Positions 2,736 to 30,510 of a DNA stretch of 62,288 nt are shown one piece after another. Below the pieces are notes generated by a model. The model worked only from the letters and a program-made list of their open reading frames with translations, did no database searches and was not told the origin of the DNA. The stretch lies in the IMG/VR virus record IMGVR_UViG_3300015371_000033, positions 1-62,288 of that record. One strand, 5' to 3'. Position numbers and translations under genes: made by a program. The stretch comes from a virus. Each line of letters begins with the position of its first letter. Position 1 is the stretch's first letter.

Positions 2736-2894
2736 CTACCTCGGATCCCCGGGACGGGTGTGATCGTCTGGTAGCTTGTCACCCCGCTGCTCGGTCTGAG
2801 CCTCGGGATCCTTCGGATCGAGCGACTTGTCGCGAAGCTCGTGCTCGATCAGTTCTTCGTTGCGCCACGGTTCGGTTCTGATCTCACGCGGCAT
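2736..2894 (-). CDS. Small acidic hypothetical protein
   Basis: 52 residues (MPREIRTEPWRNEELIEHEL...) preceded by GGAGGAGTC-ATG, a near-perfect Shine-Dalgarno. Rich in Glu/Asp/Arg/Pro, with no cysteines, membrane segment or recognised family. It lies just downstream of dnaE with a 9-nt gap. Confidence 0.6.
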   Translation of the reverse strand: MPREIRTEPWRNEELIEHELRDKSLDPKDPEAQTEQRGDKLPDDHTRPGDPR

Positions 2895-2903
2895 GACTCC
2901 TCC

Positions 2904-6308: not shown

Positions 6309-6525
6309 AGTCCACCATCGCCCAGGTGCCGTCGGTCTGCATCAGCACCACGTCGACCCCGTCAAAGAGGACCGAGACGAATAGACGATCAACCGGGTCA
6401 GCGGTCCACCAGCGATCGACGACACGCCAGACATCACGCTCCGTGACAGGGAAGCGGTTGACTAGGATGATCTCACCGCTACTGTCCTGTTCGACGTGAA
6501 CCGGGATGGGCTCGACCCTGGTCAC
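6301..6525 (-). CDS. Hypothetical protein
   Basis: 74 residues from a GTG overlapping the upstream gene by 4 nt. It has alternating hydrophobic strands (EIILVNRFPV, RLFVSVLFDGVDVVLMQTDG) suggesting a small beta fold. No recognised family. It is translationally coupled to dnaE downstream. Confidence 0.65.
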   Translation of the reverse strand: MTRVEPIPVHVEQDSSGEIILVNRFPVTERDVWRVVDRWWTADPVDRLFVSVLFDGVDVVLMQTDGTWAMVDYG

Positions 6526-6908
6526 CCGATGTCGTCCTGCTCATGCGCGAGCACCGCGTAGGAGTCGCAGTCGAGGTGGCGGCAGCCCGGAGCGCGGCAG
6601 CCCCGCTCTTCCCCACGCGCCGCGAGCAGGTTGCGCATGTAGAAGACTGAGTAGTTGACGAGGTCTTGCGGGTCATCGATCGCCTCGACCTGCTGGGCAA
6701 GGCTGAGGTGAGTCGAAGCCCAGATGACGCGGGCTGACTTGGAGCGGATGTGGTGAATCGAGTCCTCGATACCACCCTGCTTCCAGAGGTCTTGGTACCG
6801 TTCGTTCCGTTCCCGGAAGAGCTCGAAGCACCGGATCAGCTCCGAGAGCTGCTCCGCGTCGGTGGCGCTGAGATCCTTGTACTCGACGGTGATGTCTACC
6901 CCGCTCAC
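6522..6908 (-). CDS. Hypothetical protein with C-terminal Cys/His cluster
   Basis: 128 residues from a GTG. It is helical through residue ~100, then RGCRAPGCRHLDCDSYA gives a Cys/His group compatible with metal binding. The neighbours are nucleotide-metabolism and polymerase genes in a continuous overlapping operon. The function is not recognised. Confidence 0.65.
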   Translation of the reverse strand: MSGVDITVEYKDLSATDAEQLSELIRCFELFRERNERYQDLWKQGGIEDSIHHIRSKSARVIWASTHLSLAQQVEAIDDPQDLVNYSVFYMRNLLAARGEERGCRAPGCRHLDCDSYAVLAHEQDDIG

Positions 6909-7588
6909 GCAGCACCATCTCCCTCGAAGACGTGCTCGGCGACCGGCTCCCGAGCACCGTGCGGCTGCATCGGGAACATCTTCGCGGCCGGCAATGACTC
7001 CTCACGGAGCATGTCGGTCCACCGCTTGGTCGGGAACATCTGGTCGATGTACGGGGCGAAGAGCTCGTCGTCGTGGAACACGTGGAACCACGTCTCGTAC
7101 ATCTCCTTGAGCACCGGCCGGATGGCCCGGTTGCCTGAGCGGTCCTCCTCGCGGCAGTAGAACGCAACCGCCGCCATGTCAGCGAAGGCAACGATGCGTC
7201 CTTCGACGTCGTCCTCTTTGGCCGTCAGCCAGTTGCCCTCGACTGAGTTGCCGATTTGACCGAGGTTGGAACACAGCCCCTCCATGTTCTGCTCGTCAGC
7301 GGCCTTCATCTCACGAGCAATGTCCGGGTTGCTGTGCTTGTACGAGCGGATCACGTCCCCGCTCAGGCATTCGCTCAGGTCATGTACCAGCGCCCGCTTC
7401 AGCAGCAACTCGAAGTTGACTGAGATCCCCCGCCTGGTGTCGAGATCCTGCCCGACCAGGTAGGCGATGAACGCGACCCACCAGGAGTGCTCCGCCACAT
7501 TCTCGCGCCGGTTGGCCGGGAACGAGGAGTAGCGGTTGACGTAGCTCATCCGAGCGATCGGACCTGTGAGTGTGCTGAAGAGGTTCAT
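6905..7588 (-). CDS. HD-domain phosphohydrolase (YfbR-like 5'-deoxynucleotidase)
   Basis: 227 residues. HD residues are visible as R-x-ENVAEHSWW (His), then LVHDLSECLSGD (the HD pair) and a later ADMAAVAFY aspartate, matching the YfbR/YGK1 order. Such enzymes remove phosphate from dNMPs. Between a deoxyribosyltransferase and ThyX, it would tune deoxynucleotide pools or degrade a specific dNMP. Its start shares one base with the upstream stop (TGATG). Confidence 0.85.
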   Translation of the reverse strand: MNLFSTLTGPIARMSYVNRYSSFPANRRENVAEHSWWVAFIAYLVGQDLDTRRGISVNFELLLKRALVHDLSECLSGDVIRSYKHSNPDIAREMKAADEQNMEGLCSNLGQIGNSVEGNWLTAKEDDVEGRIVAFADMAAVAFYCREEDRSGNRAIRPVLKEMYETWFHVFHDDELFAPYIDQMFPTKRWTDMLREESLPAAKMFPMQPHGAREPVAEHVFEGDGAA

Positions 7589-8130
7589 CAGACGATCGGC
7601 TCCTTCTCGTGCTCGATGAGTTGGTCCGGGTGGTAGTTCTGAACGGCGATGCGGGTGTCGCCCTGAGCCAGATGGACCAGGATCTGGTCGAGGTCGACCC
7701 AGCCCTTCACGACAGCGTCGACGGTACCGGCGAGCATCAGGTTCATGTCCTGCCGGGTGTCGGTGCTGTCGATGTAGGCGCAGACGAACGGAGCCGACTC
7801 GCCGTTGCGACCCCACGCTGCCGGAGCCGTGGAGAGCGCCGCCGCGTAGCCCATCTCCCAGATCACACCCGGATCCACGAAGCCCGCGTCGTAGCCGCCG
7901 ACCCAGGCCACGACGAAGTCGCAGTCCAGGTTCTCGATGTTGCCGCGCAGCACCTGAGCCCGCTCCTGCGGCGAGCAGTCGCGCGGTGCCCGGCCGTCCC
8001 AGATCGCCTGACTGGCGTGGTACGGGCTGAAGACCTCCACGCCGTGGCTCTCGATCAGGTTCTTGATCCGACCGACGATCTCCTGCTGGTGCGGCGTGAA
8101 GATCGGTGCCGCGAGGTAAGCCTTCTTCAT
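7588..8130 (-). CDS. Nucleoside 2-deoxyribosyltransferase-like protein
   Basis: 180 residues. MKKAYLAAPIF at the N-terminus and DPGVIWEMGYAAAL (the D-x-G-x-x-x-E-x-G-x-A active-site helix, with Glu as likely nucleophile) match the Nuc_deoxyrib_tr family. A distal NLML supplies the conserved Asn. It would exchange bases on 2'-deoxyribose or hydrolyse deoxynucleotides. Its position between the HD gene and a flavin-type oxidoreductase suggests base or nucleotide salvage, possibly linked to modified DNA bases (inference). Confidence 0.88.
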   Translation of the reverse strand: MKKAYLAAPIFTPHQQEIVGRIKNLIESHGVEVFSPYHASQAIWDGRAPRDCSPQERAQVLRGNIENLDCDFVVAWVGGYDAGFVDPGVIWEMGYAAALSTAPAAWGRNGESAPFVCAYIDSTDTRQDMNLMLAGTVDAVVKGWVDLDQILVHLAQGDTRIAVQNYHPDQLIEHEKEPIV

Positions 8131-8969
8131 GATGCCTCCTTGAGTGCGCCGCCGGAGGCTAGCAGTCCGACGACCGTCTCGTAGGTGTGGTGGCCCAGGA
8201 CGCCGTGCTCCCAGCGTGCCCAGCGCCCTACGCGCTGGACGTGGGGGTGGCAGTCGCAGTTGTTGCCCACGACCTTCTTGCCAGGGTACAGCTGCGCTCC
8301 GGGCACTGAGTCCTCGACCTCGTGTTGCATCGGCAGCCGGTCGAGCGTGTACTCCCAGATGTCCACGTCGCGGATGCGCGTGAACCGGAACCAGGGGCAG
8401 TCGTCCGATCCGTCGTAGAGCATGAAGTTCTGGTCAGCTCTCGGCCACTGGCCGTTCCCTGCACCCGGCTTGTCGATGGACGGTGCCCGCACAAGGAACG
8501 TCTCGCGCTCCCAGAAGCGGTGCTCGTCCGGGTGCTGGCAGAGCGAGGGTGCCGGGATGGTGCTGATCACGAGCGGGTAGGCGTAGCAGATGTCCGTCAC
8601 CGTCTCCGGCGTGATCTTCACCTTGATGATCATGTGCTCGTACCAGTCGTAGAGCTGCTGGTACGTCTCCTGCAGCCACCAGATCGGATAGCGGCCCTCA
8701 CGAAGCTCGTCCCACGACACCTTCTGGCCGGCATTGCCGTAGACCTTCTTGGCGTACCCGTCACGGTCGCCCCGGCAGACGTAGGTCATCATGGCATCGG
8801 CGACGTTGTCGTCCTTCAGTAGCCCGGGCACCGGCCTCTGGAGGAACTCGTGCGGGTTGATCTCGGACTTGGGGCCATCGCTGATGATGACCGGCTCGTG
8901 CCCGTGCGTGAGTACGGCGTGCGCCGCGATCAGGCCGACCGGTCCGCTCCCCAGGATCGCTGCCTTCAC
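8127..8969 (-). CDS. FAD/NAD(P)-binding oxidoreductase-like protein
   Basis: 280 residues. The N-terminus MKAAILGSGPVGLIAAHAVL is a classic Rossmann GxGxxG dinucleotide fold, with an acidic/polar stretch ending its second strand (PVIISDGPK). A second binding element, VISTIPAP, near ~130, resembles the 'T-x-P' strand of flavoprotein amine oxidase/UDP-galactopyranose mutase-like folds. The C-terminus has GRWARWEHGVLGHHTYETV. No substrate can be assigned. Such genes are uncommon in phages and this one sits in the nucleotide-metabolism cluster. Confidence 0.7.
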   Translation of the reverse strand: MKAAILGSGPVGLIAAHAVLTHGHEPVIISDGPKSEINPHEFLQRPVPGLLKDDNVADAMMTYVCRGDRDGYAKKVYGNAGQKVSWDELREGRYPIWWLQETYQQLYDWYEHMIIKVKITPETVTDICYAYPLVISTIPAPSLCQHPDEHRFWERETFLVRAPSIDKPGAGNGQWPRADQNFMLYDGSDDCPWFRFTRIRDVDIWEYTLDRLPMQHEVEDSVPGAQLYPGKKVVGNNCDCHPHVQRVGRWARWEHGVLGHHTYETVVGLLASGGALKEAS

Positions 8970-9217
8970 TTGACGTACACCTTCGAGTCCGGCCCCGCCT
9001 CGACCACGAGCGTCTTGCCATTGTCGAAGATGAACTCCGCTGCCTCGACGCGGTGGTCGCCCCCGCCGAATGCCGGCAAGACGGAGTCAGACTTGATGCG
9101 CTCCAGCCGTGCCCCGATCAGGTCGCGACCGAGCTCGTGCTGACCGAGCATGTGTGCCGCCAGCTGGTCGGTCTGGCGACGCTCCTCGTTTTCCTCGAAC
9201 CGGATCTCACCGGCCAT
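8966..9217 (-). CDS. Hypothetical protein
   Basis: 83 residues (MAGEIRFEENEERRQ...). Charged N-terminal helix, then a beta-rich C-terminus (AAEFIFDNGKTLVVEAGPDSKVYVK). Overlaps the upstream stop by one base and the downstream gene by 4 nt. No family recognised. Confidence 0.65.
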   Translation of the reverse strand: MAGEIRFEENEERRQTDQLAAHMLGQHELGRDLIGARLERIKSDSVLPAFGGGDHRVEAAEFIFDNGKTLVVEAGPDSKVYVK

Positions 9218-9492
9218 CAGGCACCTCCCTGCTTGCGCTCTCGCTCCGCCATCGCTCCAATCAGGAAGAAGTGACGAAGATGGGTGTTCATGAATGGTTC
9301 CAGACGCGGGTCGAGATCGGGCAGCCGTGCGTGAAGCGTCTGCCAGTGGTGCTGCAAGAACTTCTCGAATGCGGCCTGGTCGACCTGCGCCTTGCTGAAC
9401 AGGACGCCCTCAATCTCTGCCGCGCCGGACGTGATCTGCGCAGCACCGGCGAGGTGCCGCTCAGCCATCTCGATGTGGTGTGCGTTGATCAC
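9217..9492 (-). CDS. Hypothetical protein
   Basis: 91 residues from a GTG at 9492 inside the primase-helicase stop region (GTGA overlap). Mostly helical, with no cysteines or membrane segment. The tight coupling to the primase-helicase suggests a replication accessory role, but nothing in the sequence identifies one. Confidence 0.65.
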   Translation of the reverse strand: MINAHHIEMAERHLAGAAQITSGAAEIEGVLFSKAQVDQAAFEKFLQHHWQTLHARLPDLDPRLEPFMNTHLRHFFLIGAMAERERKQGGA

Positions 9493-12272
9493 AGCTTGAT
9501 CTCCCTCAGTAGCTCGTGCAGGGTGGGCTCGACGCGAACGTCACCGCCCTCCTTGCGGACCATCCTTGCGTTCCAGAGCGTGTTGATGACGGCGTTTGCC
9601 TCCTCCCGGCTCATGTTCATGATCTCCTCCAGATCCTGACGGCGGAACTTGCCCTGAGCCCGGAGGAACTTAGCGAGACCCTTGCGACCGACGAGGTACT
9701 GCTTGATGTCGTCGCGATGGTCCCTAGCGTGCTTGCGGTCCTTGATGATCTCCTCTGACCGCTCGGCGTATCCGAAGCCTCGCATCTTGTAGAGCCGGTT
9801 GATGAACGCGACCGCATCGTTCACGTGCTCGACCTTCACCACGACCCGCTCGTAGGTCTCGTCCGTGCTGAAGAGACGAGCTGCCAGCGCCACCGCTACC
9901 CGGGCGATCTTGTGCCGGATGTTCGCGGCCTGTACCAGCGGCGGGTCCTCGATGTAGGCTGCGCCCATGACCATCGCGGCGTCGTACACCGCTTTCTCCG
10001 CGTCGCGCGCCCATACCACCTGCTCCGGCTTCCGAGTCCAGGCCCACCGTACCAGGGCCGCGCATGCCTCAGAGGTGTACTTCAGCTCGCCGCCCTCAAC
10101 CGGCCGATTCATCTCGGCAGCGTCCACCTCGCCGAGCGAGACGCTCATCGCCATGTCGAAGCGGGCGATGTCCTCGTTGTTCCCGATCAGCGGACGGATG
10201 GCCTGCACCCCGTAGGTGAAGTCCGACATACGAGCCTCACGAGGGTTGCCCACCCATAGCAGCCGGGTACGAGCAAAGGTCTCCTCCTGCTGAATCTTGA
10301 TCAGCTTGGCTACCCCGGAAGACCTGATGTCTGACATCTGTGAGATCTGCTCAGGCGTCATGCCCGAGACTTCCTCCAGCACCACGAGGCGCTGGTCGTT
10401 GAGCGGGATCGAACCCCACGTCACCGCCCACTCCTTGCCCGAGCCGAACGTCTGCAGCCCGCCTACGACACCGGCGAAGCTAGCCGCCTCGCAGTTGACG
10501 ATCTCGCCTGCCTGATAGTGCCGGGCCAGCGAGCGAGCGGTCTCGGACTTACCCTGCTGGGTGTCTCCGATCACGAGCGCCTCGAGCCAGCCCCGGGTCA
10601 CTAGGTCACCGCCGAAGCGCCACTGCAGGACGCTATGCCAGACGAGGTCCATCATGGCGTGCATCTCGGGCCGACCGTAGATGCGGGTGACGTGCTGACT
10701 CAGATTGTCCGAGATCTCGCGCATCTTCTTGAGCGGCCGACCCTTGGTCTGGAATCGCTTCATCAGCCGCACTACGTCGTCGGTCAGCTCGAACCGATCG
10801 ATGCTCGTCTCCTGACGGTTCACGTCCCACGCCTGGAACTCGTTGCCCTGGTGGCGCGGGTTCGGATGTAGTGCGCCCACGACTGACACCGTGTTGTTCG
10901 GCAGCGTGTTGTGCCTCCCGACCGAGGTGATCTTGATGTTCTTGTAGTCCCCGGCCTGGCCGTCGGCGTGGTCGATGCTGGGCCGGGCGAACAGAACCTC
11001 TACGGCCTGGTGCCCGGACGCCTCGATGCTGAGGTGGTTGCACTTCTGCGCACCGTATGCCTTGCGCACCGCCTCGAAGATCTGGTTGCTCGAGGAATCC
11101 ATCAGCTCGAGTACGACCGGATCCTGCGGGCTGATCTCGTAGGTGGCCTCGCCGGGTGTAGCATTCATCGGGCAGAGCTGGCACTTGGTACCGGCCGCTC
11201 GGTCGCAGGTCAGCAGCGCCTCGGAGGGCACCGTGTACCCCGGCTCCTTCTTCCCCTTGATGGTAACGAGCATCTTCACCGGCTTGCCGACGCGGTTAGA
11301 GTCGAACGACTCGAGCACCGTTACGGTCTCGATGTCATCGCCCTTCTCCTTCTTCTTCATCTCAACCGCATCAGCAAGCCGACGCTCGAAGTCACCGCTG
11401 TCGTAGCGGAGCCAGTAGTCCGTGGCGTCCTCGCCGTTCTTCTCCTTATGCGGGAACGGCCACTTGATCTTCTTGACAGCGACGGCGTAGCGACTTACGG
11501 CTCGAGCCACCTTACGGTTGGCGAGCTCACCCTTGTCGTCGCAGTCGTGCCCGACGTAAACCTCGAGACCCTCGAAGAGCGGCGACCAGGAGTCAAGCCA
11601 GACGTCTTCGGCCCCGGTGCGAGTAATCGCGATGTATCCATTCTGAATGGTGATCAGCGCGTCCCACTCACCACCGCAGATGATGATGCGACTGCCCGAC
11701 TCGCGCGCAAGCTGAAGCGACGAGTACGGGTACAGTGCCTTCGATACCATCCCCGACACCTGCCAGATCTTCCTGCGGCCGTCAGCGGGGCGCGGGTTGT
11801 ACCGTCGCACGTTCAGCAGCTCGCCCTCCGGGCCGCGCACGGGGATCGTGTACACCCGTCTGCCCCGGTCCCAACCGATCTCGTATTCCTGAAGCGTGTC
11901 GGTGCGGAGACCCCTGCGTTCGATCAACCAGTCAAGTGCCTCGTCTTCCGAGAGGAGTGCCGAGGCCCACCCTGCCACGTGAGCCTCGGTCACCACCTCT
12001 TCCTGCTCCCGTCGCCGAGCCTTCACCTTCCCCGATCCGTTTCGGTGGGCCGGTGGGTCTACCCACTCGTCCTGCCGCTTGATCAATTCGATGACGCTCC
12101 CACCTCCGCATCCTCTGAAGCACCACCACTCAGAGGAGTTGACCTGGAGGCTGGCCGAACGGGTCGTGTCTTCGTGGAGCGGACAGAACATGTCCCACTC
12201 CCCGTTCGACCGAGCCTCCTCACCGATCAAGTACGGCTCGAGACGCCGCAGGTGCTCCTTGCGTACTGCCAT
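9489..12272 (-). CDS. DNA primase-helicase fusion
   Basis: 927 residues. A CHC2-type zinc domain is at ~29-60 (FCPLHED...WWCFRGCGGGS: C, H, C, C ligands). A TOPRIM region follows near 195-265 (IIICGGEWDAL, then VYVGHDCDDKG for the metal-binding acidic residues). A Cys-rich segment (CDRAAGTKCQLCPMN) lies in the middle. The C-terminal half is an AAA+/MCM-like ATPase with Walker A GDTQQGKSET (~567) and Walker B RLVVLEEVSGM (~627), followed by an arginine-containing sensor region and a C-terminal winged-helix-like segment. It would unwind and prime DNA for the phage polymerase. Confidence 0.9.
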   Translation of the reverse strand: MAVRKEHLRRLEPYLIGEEARSNGEWDMFCPLHEDTTRSASLQVNSSEWWCFRGCGGGSVIELIKRQDEWVDPPAHRNGSGKVKARRREQEEVVTEAHVAGWASALLSEDEALDWLIERRGLRTDTLQEYEIGWDRGRRVYTIPVRGPEGELLNVRRYNPRPADGRRKIWQVSGMVSKALYPYSSLQLARESGSRIIICGGEWDALITIQNGYIAITRTGAEDVWLDSWSPLFEGLEVYVGHDCDDKGELANRKVARAVSRYAVAVKKIKWPFPHKEKNGEDATDYWLRYDSGDFERRLADAVEMKKKEKGDDIETVTVLESFDSNRVGKPVKMLVTIKGKKEPGYTVPSEALLTCDRAAGTKCQLCPMNATPGEATYEISPQDPVVLELMDSSSNQIFEAVRKAYGAQKCNHLSIEASGHQAVEVLFARPSIDHADGQAGDYKNIKITSVGRHNTLPNNTVSVVGALHPNPRHQGNEFQAWDVNRQETSIDRFELTDDVVRLMKRFQTKGRPLKKMREISDNLSQHVTRIYGRPEMHAMMDLVWHSVLQWRFGGDLVTRGWLEALVIGDTQQGKSETARSLARHYQAGEIVNCEAASFAGVVGGLQTFGSGKEWAVTWGSIPLNDQRLVVLEEVSGMTPEQISQMSDIRSSGVAKLIKIQQEETFARTRLLWVGNPREARMSDFTYGVQAIRPLIGNNEDIARFDMAMSVSLGEVDAAEMNRPVEGGELKYTSEACAALVRWAWTRKPEQVVWARDAEKAVYDAAMVMGAAYIEDPPLVQAANIRHKIARVAVALAARLFSTDETYERVVVKVEHVNDAVAFINRLYKMRGFGYAERSEEIIKDRKHARDHRDDIKQYLVGRKGLAKFLRAQGKFRRQDLEEIMNMSREEANAVINTLWNARMVRKEGGDVRVEPTLHELLREIKL

Positions 12273-24208: not shown

Positions 24209-24733
24209 CTAGGCGTTTCCCCGGACCCGCTTCTTCTTGCCCGAGGTCTTGCCGCCGGACGTCTTGCTCGACGTCGCCTTCGGCTTCGACTCCGCCCGCT
24301 TGCTGGCGATGTTCTCCGCCTTGGGCGTGTAGAGGCCGAGCGCCTCGAGGCCCGTCTTGATGAAGCCCTCGGACTTCCCGGACCGAGCGGCGAGCCAGCC
24401 CCACGAGGAGTACTCGTCGGCCTTGTTCCGCTCCTTCGAGATCGCCTTGAGCAGCGCCTCGTCCGTCTTGCCCGTGATCGCCGGGACCTCGCCCTCCGCG
24501 ACCCGGTGCTGCATCGCGAGGAACGCGGCCTTGCCCGGCGTGATCTTGAGGTGCTTCGCGACCGCGCTCAGGCTCTCGTCGCCGTCGACGTAGTGCTCGA
24601 CGACGTAGGCCATCTGCGTGGCGGTCTGCGCCTCGCGGGCTGCCCGCTTCGCCTCGGCAGCGTTCGCCGAGCCGTTGTCCTGACCCTTGGCCTGCGTCTT
24701 CTTCTTGGAAGACGTGGTCTTGGTCTTGGGCAT
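24209..24733 (-). CDS. Lys/Ala-rich DNA-binding-like protein
   Basis: 174 residues starting MPKTKTTSSKKKTQAKG. Both tails are Lys/Ser/Ala-rich, histone H1- or nucleoid-protein-like, around a helical core with an HTH-like stretch (DESLSAVAKHLKITPGKAAFLAM). Its 142-nt leader is unusually structured: ribozyme HHR1 and two further hairpins precede a GGGAAGGGAG ribosome site. It may coat phage DNA or regulate transcription. Confidence 0.65.
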   Translation of the reverse strand: MPKTKTTSSKKKTQAKGQDNGSANAAEAKRAAREAQTATQMAYVVEHYVDGDESLSAVAKHLKITPGKAAFLAMQHRVAEGEVPAITGKTDEALLKAISKERNKADEYSSWGWLAARSGKSEGFIKTGLEALGLYTPKAENIASKRAESKPKATSSKTSGGKTSGKKKRVRGNA

Positions 24734-24811: not shown

Positions 24812-24877
24812 AACCCGGACGGTCCTCCAACTTTGAAGGACCGTTTCGCCGGAATTGCACCGGCTCGTCAGCGGGTT
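24812..24877 (-). ncRNA. Type I hammerhead ribozyme HHR1
   Basis: Minus strand order: stem I AACCCG, core CTGACGAG, stem II GCCGG/CCGGC, core CGAAAC, stem III (9 bp, one G-U), cleavage triplet GTC, stem I partner CGGGTT. Predicted cut is between 24818 and 24817. The stop TAA (24876-24878) of the upstream gene opens stem I, 4 nt before the core. It is the last (most downstream) copy of the array and has the longest stem III loop region. Confidence 0.92.
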
Positions 24878-25187
24878 AGAAGCGCGAGTTGAACTCCCTG
24901 GCCTTCAGGATGCGCTCCAGGATGTCGGGCGGGGTACCCAGGTGAAGAGCGTCGTGCCACTCCTTCCCGTCCCACTCGAAGACGCCCTGGTAGAGATCGC
25001 CCATGTCGATGACGCCGACTGTCTTGCGGCCATCGTCGAACCTGAGCTCCTCCACGTACAGGTCGTACGCGATGTCGGAATCACCATCGTACTGCTCGCG
25101 AAGGTGATCGGTGTCCTGCACGATGGACGCGACGTCGCGGGCCGTACCGTCAGCCCTGCGCTGCAGAGCTTCATGTGCGTCGGTCAT
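24876..25187 (-). CDS. Hypothetical protein (ribozyme-bounded cassette)
   Basis: 103 residues (MTDAHEALQRRADGT...). A helical start, then beta strands DIAYDLYVEELRFDDGRKTVGVIDMGDLYQGVFEWDG. Its ATG overlaps the upstream gene stop (ATGA), so HHR2 and HHR1 would release these two genes as one bicistronic mRNA. No family recognised. Confidence 0.65.
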   Translation of the reverse strand: MTDAHEALQRRADGTARDVASIVQDTDHLREQYDGDSDIAYDLYVEELRFDDGRKTVGVIDMGDLYQGVFEWDGKEWHDALHLGTPPDILERILKAREFNSRF

Positions 25188-25420
25188 GACCGTGACCTAC
25201 GAGCGACCAGCAGGTCGGCCTCGAGATCGAACGGACTCAGCAGCTGGTGGTGCACCGGGTGATCCTGGATCTGCTCCCGCAGCTTCCGACTGATCGTCTG
25301 GAGCCTTACGGTTGCGTAGCCAGGCTCGACCGTCTTCCCCCGCCGCTTGCGAGGCAGTGAGATGACGATGACCGGCGTACCGGCGCTGAGTGGCCCGAAG
25401 GTCTTCCTCAGTACGTGCAT
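25184..25420 (-). CDS. Hypothetical small beta protein
   Basis: 78 residues from ATG at 25420 (AAAGGA six to seven nt upstream). MHVLRKTFGPLSAGTPVIVISLPRKRRGKTVEPGYATVRL has the look of a small SH3/KOW-like barrel, then a polar C-terminus. First gene after the HHR2 cleavage site. Confidence 0.65.
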   Translation of the reverse strand: MHVLRKTFGPLSAGTPVIVISLPRKRRGKTVEPGYATVRLQTISRKLREQIQDHPVHHQLLSPFDLEADLLVARRSRS

Positions 25421-25447
25421 CGGCATTCCTTTCTGGTAGGTTGGCAT

Positions 25448-25501
25448 GCCGGACCCGACCGAAGTCGGGTTTCGTCAGTTGCCAGCTGACTCGTCAGCGG
25501 C
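25448..25501 (-). ncRNA. Type I hammerhead ribozyme HHR2
   Basis: Stem I GCCG/CGGC, core CTGACGAG, stem II GTCAG/CTGAC with a 7-nt loop, CGAAAC, stem III CCCGAC/GTCGGG closed by a UUCG tetraloop, GTC triplet. Predicted cut between 25452 and 25451. The stop TAG at 25501-25503 begins 3 nt before the core. Confidence 0.93.
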
Positions 25502-25959
25502 TACAGGCCGTGCAGCTCGAGCTTGTCCATCGTGGCCTCGTCGATGCCGTTGCTGCCGAACATCATCAGCTTGAGACCGTAGGTGATCCGGCGCTTGATG
25601 AGCTCGCGCAGGACGTCGTCGTTCGGGATGGGCACGCCCAGCTCGAGCTCGTCGCTCAGGCAGCGGCAGGCGTCGGCCCACAGCGGGAGCAGGAAGTCCT
25701 TCGAGAACTCCCAGCCCTGGCCGAACTCGCGGCTCAGCTCGGACGGGAAGTCCTCGTCCCAGGTCTCCCAGTGCTCGACGACCTGGACGCACAGCCGGTT
25801 GGCGTAGCGTGCCCAGGAGCGCGTCGGCTCCTTGAAGAGGACGAACGTCTCGTTGCCGTCCCAGAACACGCGGTCGACGACGTGGGTGAGCCCGTCGCTC
25901 GCAGCGATCAGCCGGTCGCCCGAGACCAGCTCGGCTGCCAGCTTGTTCTGCTTCTGCAT
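25501..25959 (-). CDS. Hypothetical protein (ribozyme-bounded cassette)
   Basis: 152 residues (MQKQNKLAAELVSGDRLIA...). First ~60 residues look beta-rich (LTHVVDRVFWDGNETFVLFK), the rest helical and acidic. The ribosome site GAAAGGA follows CUACCA directly after HHR3. Single-gene product predicted between HHR3 and HHR2. Confidence 0.65.
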   Translation of the reverse strand: MQKQNKLAAELVSGDRLIAASDGLTHVVDRVFWDGNETFVLFKEPTRSWARYANRLCVQVVEHWETWDEDFPSELSREFGQGWEFSKDFLLPLWADACRCLSDELELGVPIPNDDVLRELIKRRITYGLKLMMFGSNGIDEATMDKLELHGL

Positions 25960-25980
25960 GGGTGGATCCTTTCTGGTAGA

Positions 25981-26033
25981 TGACCCGACCCACCCGGAGG
26001 TGGGTTTCGTCCTAACGGACTCGTCAGGGGTCA
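25981..26033 (-). ncRNA. Type I hammerhead ribozyme HHR3
   Basis: The clearest copy: stem I TGACCC/GGGTCA (6 bp), CTGACGAG, stem II GTCC/GGAC with loop GTTA, CGAAAC, stem III CCCACC/GGTGGG with loop TCCG, GTC. Predicted cut between 25987 and 25986. The upstream stop TGA is itself the first three bases of stem I. Confidence 0.95.
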
Positions 26034-26555
26034 GCTCTCCTCCCACTCATCGGAGAGGAGCTCGCAGTTGTGCTGCGAGAGGTAGTCGGTCAAGCCAGCC
26101 AGCAGCTTGTCGGGATCCTGCTCGTGCAGCGGGACGCGGACGTCGATCTTGAAGAGGACGTCGCGCTGCAGCTGCTCTTGGCAGTAGTCCACGACCCAGG
26201 CTTCAGCTGCCTCGCCAGCGGCCTGCTCGTACGCATCGCTGATCTCGTCGATCAGGCCGTAGCGTGAGAAGACCTCGATCTGGTCGTCGCTCATGCCCAG
26301 CTCGCGGTACAGCGACTGCGGAGTGGGGTCGTCGGCATACTCACCGGCGAGCCAGCCACTCGGCAGCGTGTCGAGGATGGCAGGATCCCCATCGGCGAGG
26401 CCCTTCAAGACACGCTTGAAGTCTTCATCCTTGGGATCCGAGCTATCGAAGTACCAGGACGCGGCGTTCACACCGGCCATCCCGCCCAGCTTGCGTGCCT
26501 CTTCGACGAGGACGCTGTGCTGCTTGGGGACTTTGACGCTGTGGGACTCGCTCAT
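26031..26555 (-). CDS. Acidic hypothetical protein (ribozyme-bounded cassette)
   Basis: 174 residues (MSESHSVKVPKQHSVLVEEARKL...). Strongly acidic and mainly helical (DEISDAYEQAAGEAAEAWVV), one Cys pair far apart, no membrane segment. Lies alone between HHR4 and HHR3. Function unknown. Confidence 0.65.
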   Translation of the reverse strand: MSESHSVKVPKQHSVLVEEARKLGGMAGVNAASWYFDSSDPKDEDFKRVLKGLADGDPAILDTLPSGWLAGEYADDPTPQSLYRELGMSDDQIEVFSRYGLIDEISDAYEQAAGEAAEAWVVDYCQEQLQRDVLFKIDVRVPLHEQDPDKLLAGLTDYLSQHNCELLSDEWEES

Positions 26556-26578
26556 TTCGAGCTCCTTCTGGTAGGGTG

Positions 26579-26632
26579 CCCAGACCCCTCTCGCGAGGGG
26601 TTTCGCTGGATTCTCACCAGCTCGTCAGTGGG
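26579..26632 (-). ncRNA. Type I hammerhead ribozyme HHR4
   Basis: Stem I CCCA/TGGG, CTGACGAG, stem II GCTGG/CCAGC (7-nt loop), CGAAAC, stem III CCCCTC/GAGGGG with a GCGA (GNRA) tetraloop, GTC. Predicted cut between 26583 and 26582. Stop TAA at 26633-26635 abuts stem I, 4 nt from the core. Confidence 0.93.
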
Positions 26633-26959
26633 TTATTCCTCGTAGGCTGCAGCCTCTGCAGCTTCAGCCTCGTCGATCGCCTGCTGGTCCTTGCCCTCGT
26701 CGAAGCCGACGTTGTAGCCCATCTCGCGTGCGACTGTGACGAGCGCCACGACCGCAGCCTCGAGTTGGTTCGCCGGGTTCGGCAGCGAGCCGAGATCGAA
26801 CTTGCCGTTGAAGATGCTCTCGATGATCGGCGCGTGGTCCGGGCACTCCTTCTCGAACTTCTCTTCGAGCGCCAGCCAGAACGCCTCGTCGGCTGTGTCC
26901 TCAGGACGGTTGCCCGGGATCATGCCTTCGCTGACTCCCGGTGGTAGGTTGCTGGGCAT
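26633..26959 (-). CDS. Acidic hypothetical protein (ribozyme-bounded cassette)
   Basis: 108 residues from ATG at 26959 with AAGGAGGACGC upstream. Proline-rich N-terminus then amphipathic helices and an Ala/Glu tail (EAEAAEAAAYEE). A second CUACCACC sequence occurs inside its first codons, so an internal start at MIPGNRPED is a weak alternative. Confidence 0.62.
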   Translation of the reverse strand: MPSNLPPGVSEGMIPGNRPEDTADEAFWLALEEKFEKECPDHAPIIESIFNGKFDLGSLPNPANQLEAAVVALVTVAREMGYNVGFDEGKDQQAIDEAEAAEAAAYEE

Positions 26960-26977
26960 GCGTCCTCCTTGTAGATT

Positions 26978-27036
26978 GCCCAGACCCCGCACCTCCGAGC
27001 GGGGTTTCGTCGCGTCGCAGCGACTCGTCAGTGGGC
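26978..27036 (-). ncRNA. Type I hammerhead ribozyme HHR5
   Basis: Stem I GCCCA/TGGGC (5 bp), CTGACGAG, stem II GTCGC/GCGAC, CGAAAC, stem III CCCCGC/GCGGGG (8-nt loop), GTC. Predicted cut between 26983 and 26982. The stop TAG (27040-27042) is 8 nt before the core, the widest stop-core spacing in the set. Confidence 0.93.
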
Positions 27037-27039
27037 TGA

Positions 27040-27222
27040 CTACTTGACCGGCTTGTAGATGTTCAGGCCGATCTTGACGCCGTCGGCACCGGGCACCTGC
27101 TGGTTGCCCTGGCTCGAGGCGATGATGGTCGACTTGCCGCTCGCCGAGGTCCCGTGCTCCTTCTTCAGATCCACGGTGATGACGAGCTTGTTGCCGTTGA
27201 CCTTCATGTCCATGTTCAGCAT
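27040..27222 (-). CDS. Small beta-rich hypothetical protein
   Basis: 60 residues (MLNMDMKVNGNKLVITVDL...). Two beta hairpins flank a Ser/Gly loop SASGKSTIIAS, which superficially resembles a P-loop but lacks the rest of any nucleotide-binding fold in so short a protein. Small proteins with this pattern are common and uncharacterised in phages. Confidence 0.65.
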   Translation of the reverse strand: MLNMDMKVNGNKLVITVDLKKEHGTSASGKSTIIASSQGNQQVPGADGVKIGLNIYKPVK

Positions 27223-27245
27223 GGAGGGCTCCTTTCTGGTAGATT

Positions 27246-27301
27246 AGCCCGACCGCCCGGGTGGGCGGTTTCGCCAGGATCTCACTGGCTCGTCAGGGGC
27301 T
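27246..27301 (-). ncRNA. Type I hammerhead ribozyme HHR6
   Basis: Stem I AGCCC/GGGCT, CTGACGAG, stem II GCCAG/CTGGC (7-nt loop), CGAAAC, stem III CCGCCC/GGGCGG with loop ACCC, GTC. Predicted cut between 27251 and 27250. The TAA stop (27301-27303) ends at the first stem I base, 4 nt from the core. Confidence 0.94.
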
Positions 27302-27846
27302 TAGACCGAGTCGTAGCCGGACGCCTTGGCGCGGGCCATCTCGAACTCGTGCTCCTCGCGATCGCGGAACCGCTTGCCCCACTTGGGGTGGTCGATCCAG
27401 AGATCGCGCATCCTCTTGTAGCCGCGATTCCGCATCAGCGACTTCATGGCGCGGTCGCGCTGGTACCTGGCGACCCACTCCATCGCCTCGCGGTCCGTCA
27501 GATTGTGCGGATACACCATCTGATTGAGGCTGGGGCTGAAGACGACCATCGGCCGGTTCTCCAGCTGGCTGAGGATGTGTGCGACCCGCGTCTGCGGCGA
27601 GCGGAACCAGGGCCGGGTGTAGCCGCGCTCCAGCAGGAACTCGTCGCGCTCGTCGCTGGTGGCGAAGACGCGGCCGTAGCTGTCTGCGGGAGTCCAGCTC
27701 CACTGGTCCCTGTCGTCGTGGATCGTGGTCTGGTCCACGATGCCCGGTGTGTAGGGCTCGTGGCTGACCGGTGACGTTCCGCTCACCGAGAGGCGACGGT
27801 TGCCCGCCACGCGCTCGTTGACGCAGGTGGTCTGCCTTCGGGACAT
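27301..27846 (-). CDS. Hypothetical protein (ribozyme-bounded cassette)
   Basis: 181 residues from ATG at 27846 (GAGGAG upstream). Aromatic and Arg-rich (DQWSWTPADSYGRVF, EMEWVARYQRDRAMKSLMRNRGYKRM). Possibly nucleic-acid binding, but no known motif. It is the largest gene in the cassette array and lies alone between HHR7 and HHR6. Confidence 0.65.
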   Translation of the reverse strand: MSRRQTTCVNERVAGNRRLSVSGTSPVSHEPYTPGIVDQTTIHDDRDQWSWTPADSYGRVFATSDERDEFLLERGYTRPWFRSPQTRVAHILSQLENRPMVVFSPSLNQMVYPHNLTDREAMEWVARYQRDRAMKSLMRNRGYKRMRDLWIDHPKWGKRFRDREEHEFEMARAKASGYDSV

Positions 27847-27874
27847 GGTGCTCTCCTCACTGGTAGTTGGCAGT

Positions 27875-27928
27875 GCCGGACCCACCCGAAGGTGGGTTTC
27901 GCTCGTCGCCAACGAGCTCATCAGCGGC
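27875..27928 (-). ncRNA. Type I hammerhead ribozyme HHR7
   Basis: The only copy with the canonical CTGATGAG core (all others CTGACGAG; position 7 is variable in the family). Stem I GCCG/CGGC, stem II GCTCG/CGAGC, CGAAAC, stem III CCCACC/GGTGGG with UUCG loop, GTC. Predicted cut between 27879 and 27878. Stop TAG (27928-27930) 3 nt before the core. Confidence 0.94.
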
Positions 27929-28209
27929 TAGAGTGGCCAGACCAGGAACTTAGTCTCGCCTTTGTATCGCCCGGTGGGCGTGAAGCGTCGCACGTAGATG
28001 ACTCCGCTGCGACGCCTGTCCCTCAGCTCGATGATCGCGGAGGCTGTGTGCCATCCGCCACCATCCGGCCGGTTCTTCAGGAAGATCCCGGCAGCCTCCA
28101 TCGGGCTTTCGGCCACGACGACCTCCACGCGGGTGGGCCGTGGTCGAGACCAGGAGACCTGGCTGGTGGTGCGACGCGGCTCCCTGTAGATGCCGAATTT
28201 CTTCAGCAT
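27928..28209 (-). CDS. Hypothetical beta-rich protein
   Basis: 93 residues (MLKKFGIYREPRRTT...). Strand-rich (VEVVVAESPMEAAGIFL, ASAIIELRDRRRSGVIYVRRF) and basic. Coupled to the upstream 66-aa gene by TAATG, making a bicistron between HHR8 and HHR7. Confidence 0.62.
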   Translation of the reverse strand: MLKKFGIYREPRRTTSQVSWSRPRPTRVEVVVAESPMEAAGIFLKNRPDGGGWHTASAIIELRDRRRSGVIYVRRFTPTGRYKGETKFLVWPL

Positions 28210-28409
28210 TACTTCAGCTTGCCGAGGATGCCCTCGAGCTCCATCCCGAGCGCGTTGTTCGCCTGGCGCTCGTCCTTGGACGCGCCCTGGTTCCACTCGC
28301 TCGAGAGCTTGCTGCGCTCGGAGCAGACGTCACGCGCTCCCTTCAGCACCTCGCGGATGATGTCGAACTCGCGAGGGTTGAGGTTGAGCGTGATCTTGGC
28401 ATCGGCCAT
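28209..28409 (-). CDS. Small helical hypothetical protein
   Basis: 66 residues (MADAKITLNLNPREFDIIREVLKG...). One beta strand then two helices; no known motif. The ribosome site GAAAGGA follows CUACCA after HHR8 cleavage. Confidence 0.65.
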   Translation of the reverse strand: MADAKITLNLNPREFDIIREVLKGARDVCSERSKLSSEWNQGASKDERQANNALGMELEGILGKLK

Positions 28410-28436
28410 GATGGTTCCTTTCTGGTAGGTGGCGTT

Positions 28437-28495
28437 GCCGGACCGGTCAGCCGGAGCTGGCCGGTTTCGTCCTTTGCCTAGGACTCGTCAGCGGC
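28437..28495 (-). ncRNA. Type I hammerhead ribozyme HHR8 (overlaps coding sequence)
   Basis: Stem I GCCG/CGGC, CTGACGAG, stem II GTCCT/AGGAC, CGAAAC, extended stem III CCGGCCAGC/GCTGACCGG with one C-A mismatch, GTC. Predicted cut between 28441 and 28440. Unlike most copies, the upstream 51-aa frame reads through stem I and the core (encoding ...ADES) and stops at TAG 28478-28480 in the stem II loop. Confidence 0.92.
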
Positions 28496-28633
28496 GTGTG
28501 TCTGGAGGTACTCGTGGAACGCTGCGTGCTTGGCGAGCAGCTCTTCGATCTCTGCGATCGTGTAGGCTGCCCACTTGGCGATGCAGTCCTGGTGGTCGCG
28601 CGGGTTCAGGTCGATGTCGATGTACTCGATCAT
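28478..28633 (-). CDS. Small hypothetical protein ending inside ribozyme HHR8
   Basis: 51 residues (MIEYIDIDLNPRDHQDCIAK...HAADES). Helical and acidic. Its final codons GCT-GAC-GAG-TCC are the ribozyme core and half of stem II, so translation and ribozyme folding compete for the same RNA. Its ATG shares a base with the upstream stop (TGATG). Confidence 0.65.
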   Translation of the reverse strand: MIEYIDIDLNPRDHQDCIAKWAAYTIAEIEELLAKHAAFHEYLQTHAADES

Positions 28634-28737
28634 CACATGTCACCCGTGAGGATCATCGCGACGAGGCAGCCGATGAAGACCGTGCTGCCTACGGCGACGA
28701 CCCAGACCATGAGGAGCAGCTGCAGTGTCTTGGACAT
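28633..28737 (-). CDS. Single-span mini membrane protein
   Basis: 34 residues, MSKT followed by a continuous hydrophobic helix (LQLLLMVWVVAVGSTVFIGCLVAMIL) and a short polar end. GGGAGCC ribosome site. First gene after HHR9; translated as a pair with the 51-aa gene. Confidence 0.65.
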   Translation of the reverse strand: MSKTLQLLLMVWVVAVGSTVFIGCLVAMILTGDM

Positions 28738-28757
28738 GATGGCTCCCTGGTAGGTTA

Positions 28758-28813
28758 TAGCCTGACGAGGGCGGTGCGCCCTCGTTTCGCTCTTCTGAGC
28801 TCGTCAGAGGCTA
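28758..28813 (-). ncRNA. Type I hammerhead ribozyme HHR9
   Basis: Stem I TAGCCT/AGGCTA (6 bp), CTGACGAG, short stem II GCTC/GAGC with loop AGAA, CGAAAC, stem III CGAGGGC/GCCCTCG (7 bp), GTC. Predicted cut between 28764 and 28763. The upstream stop TAG is the first three bases of stem I. Confidence 0.94.
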
Positions 28814-29092
28814 GATGATGACGGAGATCGCGCTGTCGACCAGCTGGTTGATGTGGTTGAAGACCGTGCGTGCTACGTCTTCACCTACCAGCCGCCCGAA
28901 CTCGCCCTCGAAGAACTCCTGCAGGTCGAGCGCCGGGGTGACGCTGTGGTCGATCAGGGCAGCCCACCGCTTGACGTCTTCATAGTCGTAGTCGCGCCGC
29001 TGCTGTGAGTACCTGGTCGAGACGATGACGACGGTCCCGGCCGTGCAATCGATGCGGACATGACTTATGACGTCGTTGATCACGCGAGTCAT
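28811..29092 (-). CDS. Hypothetical protein (ribozyme-bounded cassette)
   Basis: 93 residues (MTRVINDVISHVRIDCTAG...). Beta strand VVIVSTRYSQQ then helices (EDVKRWAALIDH, VARTVFNHINQLVDSAISVII). The leader consists of repeated GAGAGG units (29100-29119) that mimic a Shine-Dalgarno several times. Function unknown. Confidence 0.65.
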   Translation of the reverse strand: MTRVINDVISHVRIDCTAGTVVIVSTRYSQQRRDYDYEDVKRWAALIDHSVTPALDLQEFFEGEFGRLVGEDVARTVFNHINQLVDSAISVII

Positions 29093-29262
29093 GGCTTACT
29101 CCCTCTCCCTCTCCCTCTCCATGCGCGTATGCGCCTGCGCGGACGAGGGCGGTTTGGTAGTTGGCGTTTCTGCACTCCCCTGTACGCATGTATGCGCGTG
29201 CGGGAGGCAGCGGCTGGTAGCTTAGGCCTCGTGTGTGTGCATGCGCATGCGTAGCAGGGCAT
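29089..29262 (-). CDS. Doubtful Arg/His-rich small ORF over a repeat region
   Basis: 57 codons from an ATG with GGAG five nt upstream, just after HHR10, ending in ATGA overlap with the next gene. Those signals favour translation, but the product (CACTHTRP, TRIHAYRG, RRIRAWRGRGRG) merely reflects alternating purine-pyrimidine tracts. It may be a leader region only. Confidence 0.3.
   Translation of the reverse strand: MPCYACACTHTRPKLPAAASRTRIHAYRGVQKRQLPNRPRPRRRIRAWRGRGRGSKP
29098..29119 (-). repeat. Short tandem GAGAGG repeat at a translation start
   Basis: Three-plus units of CCCTCT on the plus strand, giving GAGAGG repeats 7-28 nt before the ATG at 29092 in the mRNA. It may act as a multi-register ribosome binding site. 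Confidence 0.6.
29181..29202. repeat. Alternating purine-pyrimidine tract (22 bp)
   Basis: Strict alternation through TGTACGCATG and TATGCGCGTGCG, flanked by CCCC/GGG so it can also form an imperfect hairpin. A CUACCA copy lies next to it on the minus strand, at about 29152-29157. Confidence 0.65.
29230..29253. repeat. Alternating purine-pyrimidine tract (24 bp)
   Basis: CGTGTGTGTG followed by CATGCGCATGCGTA, fully alternating, with a GCATGCGCATGC palindrome inside. CUACCA follows on the minus strand at about 29214-29219. Same family as the 16.2 kb tracts. Confidence 0.7.
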
Positions 29263-29269
29263 GAGTTCT

Positions 29270-29328
29270 CCAGCCGACGGCCGTAGTCTTACCGGCCGTT
29301 TCGCGGTCTTACCGCTCGTCAGGACTGG
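29270..29328 (-). ncRNA. Type I hammerhead ribozyme HHR10 (overlaps coding sequence)
   Basis: Stem I CCAGTC/GGCTGG (6 bp, one U-G), CTGACGAG, stem II GCGG/CCGC, CGAAAC, stem III CGGCCG/CGGCCG with a 9-nt loop, GTC. Predicted cut between 29276 and 29275. The upstream 43-aa frame reads through stem I and the core and terminates at TAA (29309-29311) in the stem II loop. Confidence 0.9.
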
Positions 29329-29440
29329 TGGGTGGGTCGGCGAGCTCTCCGTCGACCTCCGCGTGGAGTTCTTTGAAGATGCCGACCAGCCAGGCGCTGT
29401 GCCCGGCTCCATCGAGAAGCTCGATGATCTCCGGAGGCAT
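29309..29440 (-). CDS. Small hypothetical protein ending inside ribozyme HHR10
   Basis: 43 residues (MPPEIIELLDGAGHSAWLVG...SPDER) with GAAGGAGACGAA before the ATG. A single amphipathic region and acidic tail. The last codons CCT-GAC-GAG-CGG are ribozyme core, as in the 51-aa gene at HHR8. Confidence 0.6.
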   Translation of the reverse strand: MPPEIIELLDGAGHSAWLVGIFKELHAEVDGELADPPTSPDER

Positions 29441-29477
29441 TTCGTCTCCTTCGGGTAGGTGGCTTGCGGACTTTCGG

Positions 29478-29541
29478 CTAGCCGACGGGCGGACCCGGGT
29501 GGGCCTCGCCCGTTTCGCTCCTGCGAGCTCGTCAGGGCTAG
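29478..29541 (-). ncRNA. Type I hammerhead ribozyme HHR11
   Basis: Stem I CTAGCC/GGCTAG (6 bp), CTGACGAG, stem II GCTC/GAGC with loop GCAG, CGAAAC, a long stem III (CGGGCG then GGCCC pairing with GGGTC then CGCCCG, one bulged A), GTC. Predicted cut between 29484 and 29483. Stop TAG lies within stem I, 2 nt before the core. It is the first copy met by leftward transcription. Confidence 0.93.
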
Positions 29542-29795
29542 AAGGTGATGCAGACGCCGTACTGCGCGTCGATCGTCACCTTGGTGGCCTTCGGCGCGTT
29601 CTTCGGCATGAGCTTCTTGAGCATGTGAGCCACGTGCTGCGGCTTGACGCCCGTGAAGTCCGCCTCGATCCGGCCGGTGGCCTTCTTCGACTTCAGGATC
29701 TCCGTGAGCCGTGCCTTGTACTCCGCCGGTGCGTACTTCGTCGACGGGGCGGTCACCACGGCGATCTGCTCGTCGGTGAGGGTGATGGCGGTCAT
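29538..29795 (-). CDS. Hypothetical protein, first gene of the leftward array
   Basis: 85 residues (MTAITLTDEQIAVVTAPST...). Helical with a beta C-terminus; Lys-rich stretch MLKKLMPKNAPKATKV. Preceded by CUACCAGTTCCAGGAGGAACTCGC, in which TTCC/GGAA could mask the ribosome site. No family recognised. Confidence 0.62.
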   Translation of the reverse strand: MTAITLTDEQIAVVTAPSTKYAPAEYKARLTEILKSKKATGRIEADFTGVKPQHVAHMLKKLMPKNAPKATKVTIDAQYGVCITF

Positions 29796-29843
29796 GCGAG
29801 TTCCTCCTGGAACTGGTAGGTGCAGCCTTTCGGCCGCCGACCC

Positions 29844-29916
29844 GGTAGGGCCGCCGAAGCGTCGAGATCCGTCCCGGCCGTAGCGGGTGACGGGTCGGCG
29901 CTTCGACCGCCCTACC
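29844..29916. repeat. Long inverted repeat (16 of 18 bp arms)
   Basis: GGTAGGGCCGCCGAAGCG at 29844-29861 and its near-perfect reverse complement at 29899-29916, separated by 37 bp. In leftward RNA it would form a stable stem in the 5' UTR of the whole early operon. Confidence 0.7.
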
Positions 29917-30416
29917 AAGCGGTCCCTCGCGGGGTAGCGGCGAGGGCGCTGCCCGGTACCCCGGGCCGTTCGCTCCGCGACGCTGTACCGGTACGCGGCG
30001 TTCCGTCCTACTCCCCTCGGTCCCTCCCCCGGTAACGGGTCGGGGTGCGGGACGGCTGACTAGGTCCGTCCGTCTCCCTCCCCCGGCCGGGTTTCCGTGC
30101 GCCCGTGCTTTCGGTCGGTGCCGCGTACCGGCCGTGAGCCGGTTCGCGAACGTTTGCGGGGTACGGCTTGAACCCCGCGAGCTAACCCTGGTCCCCCGCG
30201 CGGCCGTGTCTCGGCGCGGGCCACTACGGCGGACGCGTCCCTGCCCGACCCGCCCGCGCGTTCGCGCGGTCACGTAGCAGCCCGTCTGCGGTCGCCGGTA
30301 CTACGTGGCGACCCGCCGTTCGGCCGTTCCCTCGCGAGCGGCACCCGCGTGGCCCGGTGGCGGCCGCGTCACCCGCTATCGGGGAGCGACCGGGCGAGGG
30401 AGTATCGGCCTCGCCT

Positions 30417-30435
30417 CCCCCGGCTCACCCGGGGG
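30417..30435. promoter_or_regulatory. GC-rich hairpin
   Basis: CCCCCGG and CCGGGGG with a 5-nt loop (CTCAC). Very stable, no adjacent T-run; role unknown. Confidence 0.45.
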
Positions 30436-30489
30436 ACGAGGGGATCATGCCCTAGGACACGGCCGTTGCCTACCCCCTGGACGATCGAA

Positions 30490-30510
30490 ATTCCCGCAAA
30501 TAGCGGGAAT
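30490..30510. promoter_or_regulatory. Perfect 8-bp inverted repeat, possible operator
   Basis: ATTCCCGC and GCGGGAAT around AAATA, in an otherwise GC-rich region. Symmetry and AT-rich ends suit a dimeric repressor site as well as a hairpin. Confidence 0.45.

Follow-up and report, generated by a model that had tools for sequence, protein, structure and literature searches.

An operon of an uncultured phage punctuated by eleven type I hammerhead ribozymes with predicted self-cleavage

The minus strand of IMG/VR virus record IMGVR_UViG_3300015371_000033, which derives from an uncultured phage, carries 11 complete type I hammerhead ribozyme motifs between positions 24812 and 29541. The window analyzed is the entire record (62,288 bases, 64% guanine plus cytosine [GC]). 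We consider it likely, on the strength of the sequence, that these hammerheads (HHR1 to HHR11) punctuate one minus-strand operon transcript, in which they are predicted to self-cleave and so yield messenger RNAs (mRNAs) of one or two genes each. Sequence, covariation, and layout lend good support to their role as gene separators. The plus strand of the phage encodes the terminase and portal proteins, and the minus strand a DnaE polymerase, a primase-helicase, an exonuclease, a helicase, and ThyX. The array lies at the upstream end of this minus-strand gene run and continues on the same strand into the replication genes; the "early" timing that the initial annotation gave the operon is presumed.

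A structural detector that demands CTGANGA, stem II, GAAA, stem III, UH, and stem I returned 11 matches in the window, within exactly the limits given in the initial annotation, and none in 200 shuffled windows; when any single stem requirement was waived, the same 11 were still the sole matches in the window, and the hammerhead pattern read backwards matched nowhere in it. The core is CTGACGAG in 10 of the 11 copies and CTGATGAG in the other, while CGAAAC and GTC are present in all. Every copy retains the invariant residues (C3 U4 G5 A6 N7 G8 A9, G12 A13 A14, A15.1-U16.1, and H17), as the initial annotation had stated, and has the topology of type I, with the open end at stem I and loops closing stems II and III. 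The same copies were found by a covariance model, R1, trained on 79 hammerheads from other viral contigs with the window sequence excluded (98.6% of cells paired in the training alignment, both sides changing in 13 of 15 pairs). R1 recovered all 11 at 30-43 bits, with expectation values (E) from 2.7e-9 to 1e-5, and nothing more up to E=10. The copies are listed below, with distances in nucleotides (nt), stem lengths in base pairs (bp), and stop positions marked +11 counted from C3.

HHR1, 29478 to 29541, minus strand: cut after 29484; stop TAG of gene 29538-29795 within stem I; next ATG 43 nt past the cut; R1 32.8 bits, E 2e-6.
HHR2, 29270 to 29328, minus strand: cut after 29276; stop TAA of gene 29309-29440 within stem II (+11), and translation therefore runs through the core; next ATG at 183 nt; R1 41.4 bits, E 7.9e-9.
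HHR3, 28758 to 28813, minus strand: cut after 28764; stop TAG within stem I; next ATG at 26 nt; R1 37.0 bits.
HHR4, 28437 to 28495, minus strand: cut after 28441; stop TAG in stem II/loop II (+11); stem I of 4 bp; next ATG at 31 nt; R1 30.2 bits; RF00163 26.7 bits, under the gathering score.
HHR5, 27875 to 27928, minus strand: cut after 27879; stop TAG touches stem I; next ATG at 32 nt; R1 34.3 bits; possible 5-bp pseudoknot between loop II and the 3' tail.
HHR6, 27246 to 27301, minus strand: cut after 27251; stop TAA touches stem I; next ATG at 28 nt; R1 41.2 bits.
HHR7, 26978 to 27036, minus strand: cut after 26983; stop TAG just 5' of stem I, 11 nt ahead of C3; next ATG at 23 nt; R1 43.1 bits, E 2.7e-9.
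HHR8, 26579 to 26632, minus strand: cut after 26583; stop TAA adjoins stem I; next ATG at 27 nt; R1 38.3 bits.
HHR9, 25981 to 26033, minus strand: cut after 25987; stop TGA within stem I; next ATG at 27 nt; R1 40.8 bits.
HHR10, 25448 to 25501, minus strand: cut after 25452; stop TAG touches stem I; next ATG at 31 nt; R1 32.2 bits; possible 5-bp loop II-tail pseudoknot.
HHR11, 24812 to 24877, minus strand: cut after 24818; stop TAA touches stem I; next ATG at 84 nt; R1 31.4 bits.

The stems covary, in agreement with the initial annotation. Stem I pairs (at least 4 bp) with its own partner in 11 of 11 copies and with the partner from another copy in only 15 of 110 combinations. In a model-fitted alignment of the 11 copies, 97.5% of pair cells hold standard pairs, compared with 62% for shuffles and 23-40% for slid versions, and both sides change in 11 of 15 pairs; pairing and covariation are present in all three helices around the core. 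The notion that these motifs are chance matches, or ordinary hairpins such as terminators that have been misread, can draw on the lack of any Rfam gathering match (see below), but it is refuted at the sequence level by the empty shuffles, by R1 E values down to 2.7e-9, and by the absence of T-tracts, and we give it practically no weight.

The placement of the motifs is equally regular. The 15 consecutive genes from 29795 to 24209 give 14 junctions, and a hammerhead occurs in all 11 junctions where the genes do not overlap and in none of the three where they do (-1, -1, and -4). The intergenic gaps that hold hammerheads measure 68-97 nt in nine cases and 142 and 216 nt in the other two. Within each spacer the order is fixed: the upstream stop codon in or beside the ribozyme, the ribozyme, the cut, a leader with a ribosome-binding site, and the start codon. 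In nine copies the upstream stop begins 5-11 nt ahead of C3; in the other two (HHR2 and HHR4) it begins 11 nt past C3, and there the upstream gene is translated through the catalytic core. From the cut to the next ATG there are 23-43 nt in 9 of 11 copies, HHR2 and HHR11 having longer leaders. No terminator-like sites and no T-tracts were found on the minus strand between the array genes. Clustered hammerheads on one strand that flank single genes or short blocks are also what defines the prophage arrays of Perreault et al. 2011.

For some window copies, open frames in GC-rich antisense or shifted register defeat automatic assignment of the upstream gene; the array genes were therefore called by Shine-Dalgarno (SD) sites, overlaps, and third-position GC (0.75-0.97). 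They are listed with their lengths in amino acids (aa) and any homologues found in L255 (record G020), a ribozyme-free relative, or in L257.

29538 to 29795, minus strand: first gene, before the array; 85 aa, no assigned function; SD site, third-position GC 0.97.
29309 to 29440, minus strand: between HHR1 and HHR2; 43 aa; called by SD site and third-position GC.
28811 to 29092, minus strand: between HHR2 and HHR3; 93 aa.
28633 to 28737, minus strand: between HHR3 and HHR4; 34 aa, hydrophobic; overlaps the next gene (TGATG).
28478 to 28633, minus strand: between HHR3 and HHR4; 51 aa; reads through the HHR4 core.
28209 to 28409, minus strand: between HHR4 and HHR5; 66 aa; overlaps the next gene.
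27928 to 28209, minus strand: between HHR4 and HHR5; 93 aa.
27301 to 27846, minus strand: between HHR5 and HHR6; 181 aa.
27040 to 27222, minus strand: between HHR6 and HHR7; 60 aa; L255 homologue 69% identical, without flanking ribozymes.
26633 to 26959, minus strand: between HHR7 and HHR8; 108 aa; homologue in L255.
26031 to 26555, minus strand: between HHR8 and HHR9; 174 aa; partial homologue in L257.
25501 to 25959, minus strand: between HHR9 and HHR10; 152 aa.
25184 to 25420, minus strand: between HHR10 and HHR11; 78 aa; 4-nt overlap with the next gene.
24876 to 25187, minus strand: between HHR10 and HHR11; 103 aa; homologue in L255.
24209 to 24733, minus strand: after HHR11; 174 aa, Lys-rich; L255 homologue 51% identical.

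Pfam and PHROG gave nothing convincing for the array proteins; for the first gene (29538-29795) there was no Pfam match and no convincing PHROG match. No IMG/VR relatives were found for the proteins of 26031-26555 and 25501-25959.

The same kind of element recurs in other viruses. A pattern scan of IMG/VR gave at least 120 stretches, in which the structural detector identified at least 188 distinct hammerheads outside the window, in at least 107 records, at least 36 of them with two or more. None of 108 records searched has hammerheads on both strands. Large arrays occur in L133 (12 copies) and in L025, L039, L051, and L106 (5 each in the stretch covered), at GC contents from 33% to 59%. A stricter pattern matched 113 stretches of viral contigs and, across 257 billion bases of bacterial and archaeal genomes, a single stretch, indicating that this kind of hammerhead is largely viral. 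The hammerhead-bearing loci elsewhere have hardly any gene in common with the window phage, and no counterpart of an array gene.

Layout was quantified on 227 non-redundant viral hammerheads from 142 records, including the 11 of the window; the sample comprises type I copies with a stem III beginning CCC, and IMG/VR records are mostly fragments. Among the 164 copies with a clear upstream frame, 73% have the upstream stop at -9 to +12 of C3, that is, inside or touching the ribozyme, compared with 4% of random positions. The stops peak at -9/-8, at -3, at +1, where the UGA within the CUGA core serves as the stop codon (31 of 164), and at +11, in loop II, where a loop trinucleotide is the stop (15 of 164). 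Downstream, an SD site and start codon lie 15-45 nt past the cut in 65% of viral copies and 8% of random positions, with a median of 27 nt where found. We also considered whether the hammerheads universally stop all three reading frames; this property is enriched (31% versus 6%) but not general, and was rejected.

The 12 hammerheads of L133 (record G007, 2298-8601, plus strand) are all type I and all on one strand, in a viral contig of 33% GC that has DNA similarity to Pelagibacter phages HTVC115P and HTVC201P and whose leaders, of about 20 nt, carry AAGGAGG. It resembles the window in having a one-strand array of equal size with cut-SD-ATG spacing, and differs in its GC content and in sharing no detected gene. 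Unannotated hammerheads, one in each, are also present in two cultured phages, Agrobacterium phage OLIVR1 (L136, record 3958-4011, R1 E 6e-13) and Pelagibacter phage HTVC201P (L138, record 2260-2324, R1 E 2e-10), which are usable for experiments.

When a hammerhead cleaves, the upstream RNA, which in type I keeps the ribozyme, ends in a 2',3'-cyclic phosphate, and the downstream RNA begins with a 5'-hydroxyl (5'-OH). Neither end is known to be a preferred substrate of 3' exonucleases or of RNases that sense a 5'-monophosphate. For the window we infer cleavage, these end chemistries in the cell, effects on expression, and gating by ribosomes. Each hammerhead would fold behind the passing RNA polymerase and cut 3' of its GUC; the upstream mRNA would retain the ribozyme, which would form a structured 3' end bearing the cyclic phosphate. 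The downstream mRNA would carry a 5'-OH and, in nine of the 11 cases, open with a leader of 23-43 nt that has its own ribosome-binding site. The products would be one- or two-gene mRNAs with defined ends, probably with protected 3' ends and short uniform leaders, and neighbouring genes would be uncoupled. By analogy with engineered hammerhead insulators, mRNA stability and translation would probably be altered. RiboJ, the hammerhead of satellite tobacco ringspot virus, serves as an insulator in Escherichia coli, where its placement before a gene raised transcript levels about twofold and protein levels two- to tenfold (PMC6206723). RiboJ resembles the proposed downstream effect in its defined 5' end and its insulation from upstream sequence; it differs in being engineered, single, and without an attached upstream stop codon.

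Cleavage might instead serve chiefly to give the upstream mRNA a hairpin-capped, cyclic-phosphate 3' end, as a terminator substitute, with separation from the downstream gene as a by-product. The type I topology, which keeps the whole ribozyme on the upstream RNA, and the array's want of a terminator-like site on the minus strand agree with this, as does the start of the ribozyme at the stop codon, the most useful spot for a protective 3' structure. However, the downstream side is as constrained as the upstream one (SD and start at 15-45 nt, as above), and a plain hairpin could protect a 3' end with no catalytic core, so that we hold this account to be rather unlikely.

The position of the stop codon may bear on the timing of the cut. 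Since the stop lies in or beside the ribozyme, a ribosome that terminates there would be expected to sit over stem I and some of the core, and cleavage may wait for the departure of that ribosome. A stronger version is a translation-gated switch, in which a ribosome at the stop blocks folding, only untranslated genes are severed from their neighbours, and mRNA separation is coupled to translation; this would refine the punctuation of the operon rather than exclude it. Nearly all window copies and 73% of viral copies have a stop in or touching the ribozyme, and the use of the core UGA or a loop II trinucleotide as the stop (31 and 15 of 164) also favors gating, but compact phage genomes may select such overlap merely to save bases, and in 20-25% of copies the stop is well away from the ribozyme. 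We regard the switch as doubtful. With slightly more conviction, but still tentatively, we suggest as one possibility a widespread phage architecture in which the stop is built into the hammerhead (stem I, CUGA core, or loop II), the cut frees a fixed short leader, terminating ribosomes gate the cut, and one operon becomes separately controlled, end-defined mRNAs without host nucleases.

The 5'-OH and 2',3'-cyclic phosphate ends are substrates of RtcB, and several ribozymes flank the same genes, as would suit an RtcB-type ligase that rejoins or circularizes the cleaved pieces into spliced or circular RNAs. This seems improbable: neither the window nor any of ten further array-bearing records yielded an RtcB (the records are mostly fragments, and a host could supply the enzyme), and Perreault et al. 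sought such products and found none (PMC3088659).

Several results weigh against self-cleaving punctuation of the operon. In an Rfam scan of the window no copy reached any gathering score, the best sub-threshold values being 29.3 bits (RF00008) and 26.7 bits (RF00163). The sub-threshold matches span four hammerhead families, RF00163 (Hammerhead_1), RF00008 (Hammerhead_3), RF02275 (HH9), and RF03152 (RAGATH-1-hammerhead), with which the window copies share the core and the three-way junction and from which they differ in their short stem I and variable stem III lengths. Rfam probably misses them because stem I is short and the stems vary, rather than because they are bad hammerheads, so the covariance-model check proposed in the initial annotation has a divided outcome, with all 11 copies under the Rfam thresholds and all 11 found by the phage-trained R1. 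The initial annotation also predicted that every copy self-cleaves and gave the best-formed helices to HHR3, HHR7, and HHR9. The hammerhead is the minimum-energy fold in 9 of 11 copies, HHR3 and HHR7 among them, but competing folds are more stable by 1.0 kcal/mol in HHR9 and by 3.8 kcal/mol in HHR10. Moreover, stem I has just 4-6 bp, and the tertiary contact that fast cleavage calls for is uncertain, a 5-bp pseudoknot of loop II and tail being plausible in HHR5 and HHR10 alone. Finally, R1 matched nothing in the whole records that share the terminase (L009-L015, 49-54% identity) or the primase-helicase (L236-L243, 48-57%), indicating that the ribozymes are dispensable for the lineage; hammerheads are likewise not present in nine cultured relatives.

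In other phages (e.g., L017, L018, and L106), a 6-bp stem I is the usual case, preceded by a conserved A and followed by AA, and loop II has the sequence UNANU; these flanks and this loop likely form a tertiary contact. The window copies, with their 4-6 bp, deviate from this pattern. In the common 6-bp stem I class of other phages, a general loop II-tail pseudoknot showed no excess over mismatched pairs.

The relative L255, one of the records that share the terminase or the primase-helicase, has homologues of four array-region genes. Its homologue of gene 27040-27222 (69% identity) ends in a stop that is followed within about 10 bases by the next start, with no ribozyme between, and at 2200-9700 on its plus strand the homologues of array genes are tightly packed, with stops and starts overlapping or nearly so. 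The same kind of operon therefore occurs both with and without the modules. Phages do bear repeats at gene boundaries, and such relatives without the elements could suggest that the hammerheads are remnants of a selfish or recombination-prone repeat with no present catalytic use. However, the copies have barely any stem sequence in common and yet preserve their pairing and all core bases, unlike what repeats spread by recombination would show, and they are placed exactly at stop codons; we reject this explanation as very improbable.

The initial annotation described repeated hammerhead gene separators as little described. The separator reading is supported here, but clustered, active prophage hammerheads and a proposed role in mRNA processing are already known (PMC3088659). 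Perreault et al. 2011 found prophage genes, singly or in short blocks, flanked by clustered hammerheads, proposed that long phage RNAs are processed into single-gene or operon-length mRNAs, and observed in vitro cleavage by every ribozyme of three tandem arrays; one triple array also cleaved in E. coli (PMC3088659). Both their arrays and the window have several hammerheads per transcript around single genes or short blocks. Theirs belong to types I, II, and III, come from prophages within bacterial genomes, and form small clusters (a triple in Agrobacterium tumefaciens), whereas all 11 window copies are of type I and together occupy each non-overlapping junction of a single operon; their carrier is an uncultured virus that encodes a terminase and a portal protein. 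The window layout also embeds the stop codon, a term absent from the text of that paper (PMC3088659). In the open literature, with most subscription papers and bioRxiv outside our coverage, we found no paper with eleven hammerheads in one operon and so strict a layout, and nothing that extends Perreault et al. 2011. What is new is an operon of 11 copies that leaves no non-overlapping junction without a ribozyme, the quantified stop-cut-start rule that recurs in unrelated phages, the near absence from cellular genomes, and the comparison with ribozyme-free relatives carrying the same genes. The role of bacterial and phage hammerheads has been a standing question since 2011, and the operon, its ribozyme-free relatives, and the layout rule make it directly testable. 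If the separator role is correct, some phages would process mRNA by ribozyme instead of by host RNases, and the modules would be ready-made parts for splitting synthetic operons.

A megablast search of 15.5 kb of the window against cultured phages gave no match. A sigma-70 promoter scan of the array region found none, a weak test in a genome this GC-rich. Upstream of the first array gene, about 700 bases of the minus strand (29800-30500) are GC-rich and hairpin-rich and without a convincing gene; the operon promoter and leader may lie there. The leader 3' of HHR2 (29093-29275, minus strand) is unusually long and contains alternating GCATGCGCATGCACACACAC and GGAGAGGGAGAGGGAGAGGGAG repeats. Between 24.2 and 29.8 kb on the minus strand, a CUACC(AG) leader element lies 5' of SD sites, and it occurs also at 29819, 23882, and 21082; CTACCAG is found 16 times on the minus strand and 3 times on the plus strand. 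As CUACC(AG) also precedes hammerhead-free genes, it looks like a start-associated sequence of this phage.

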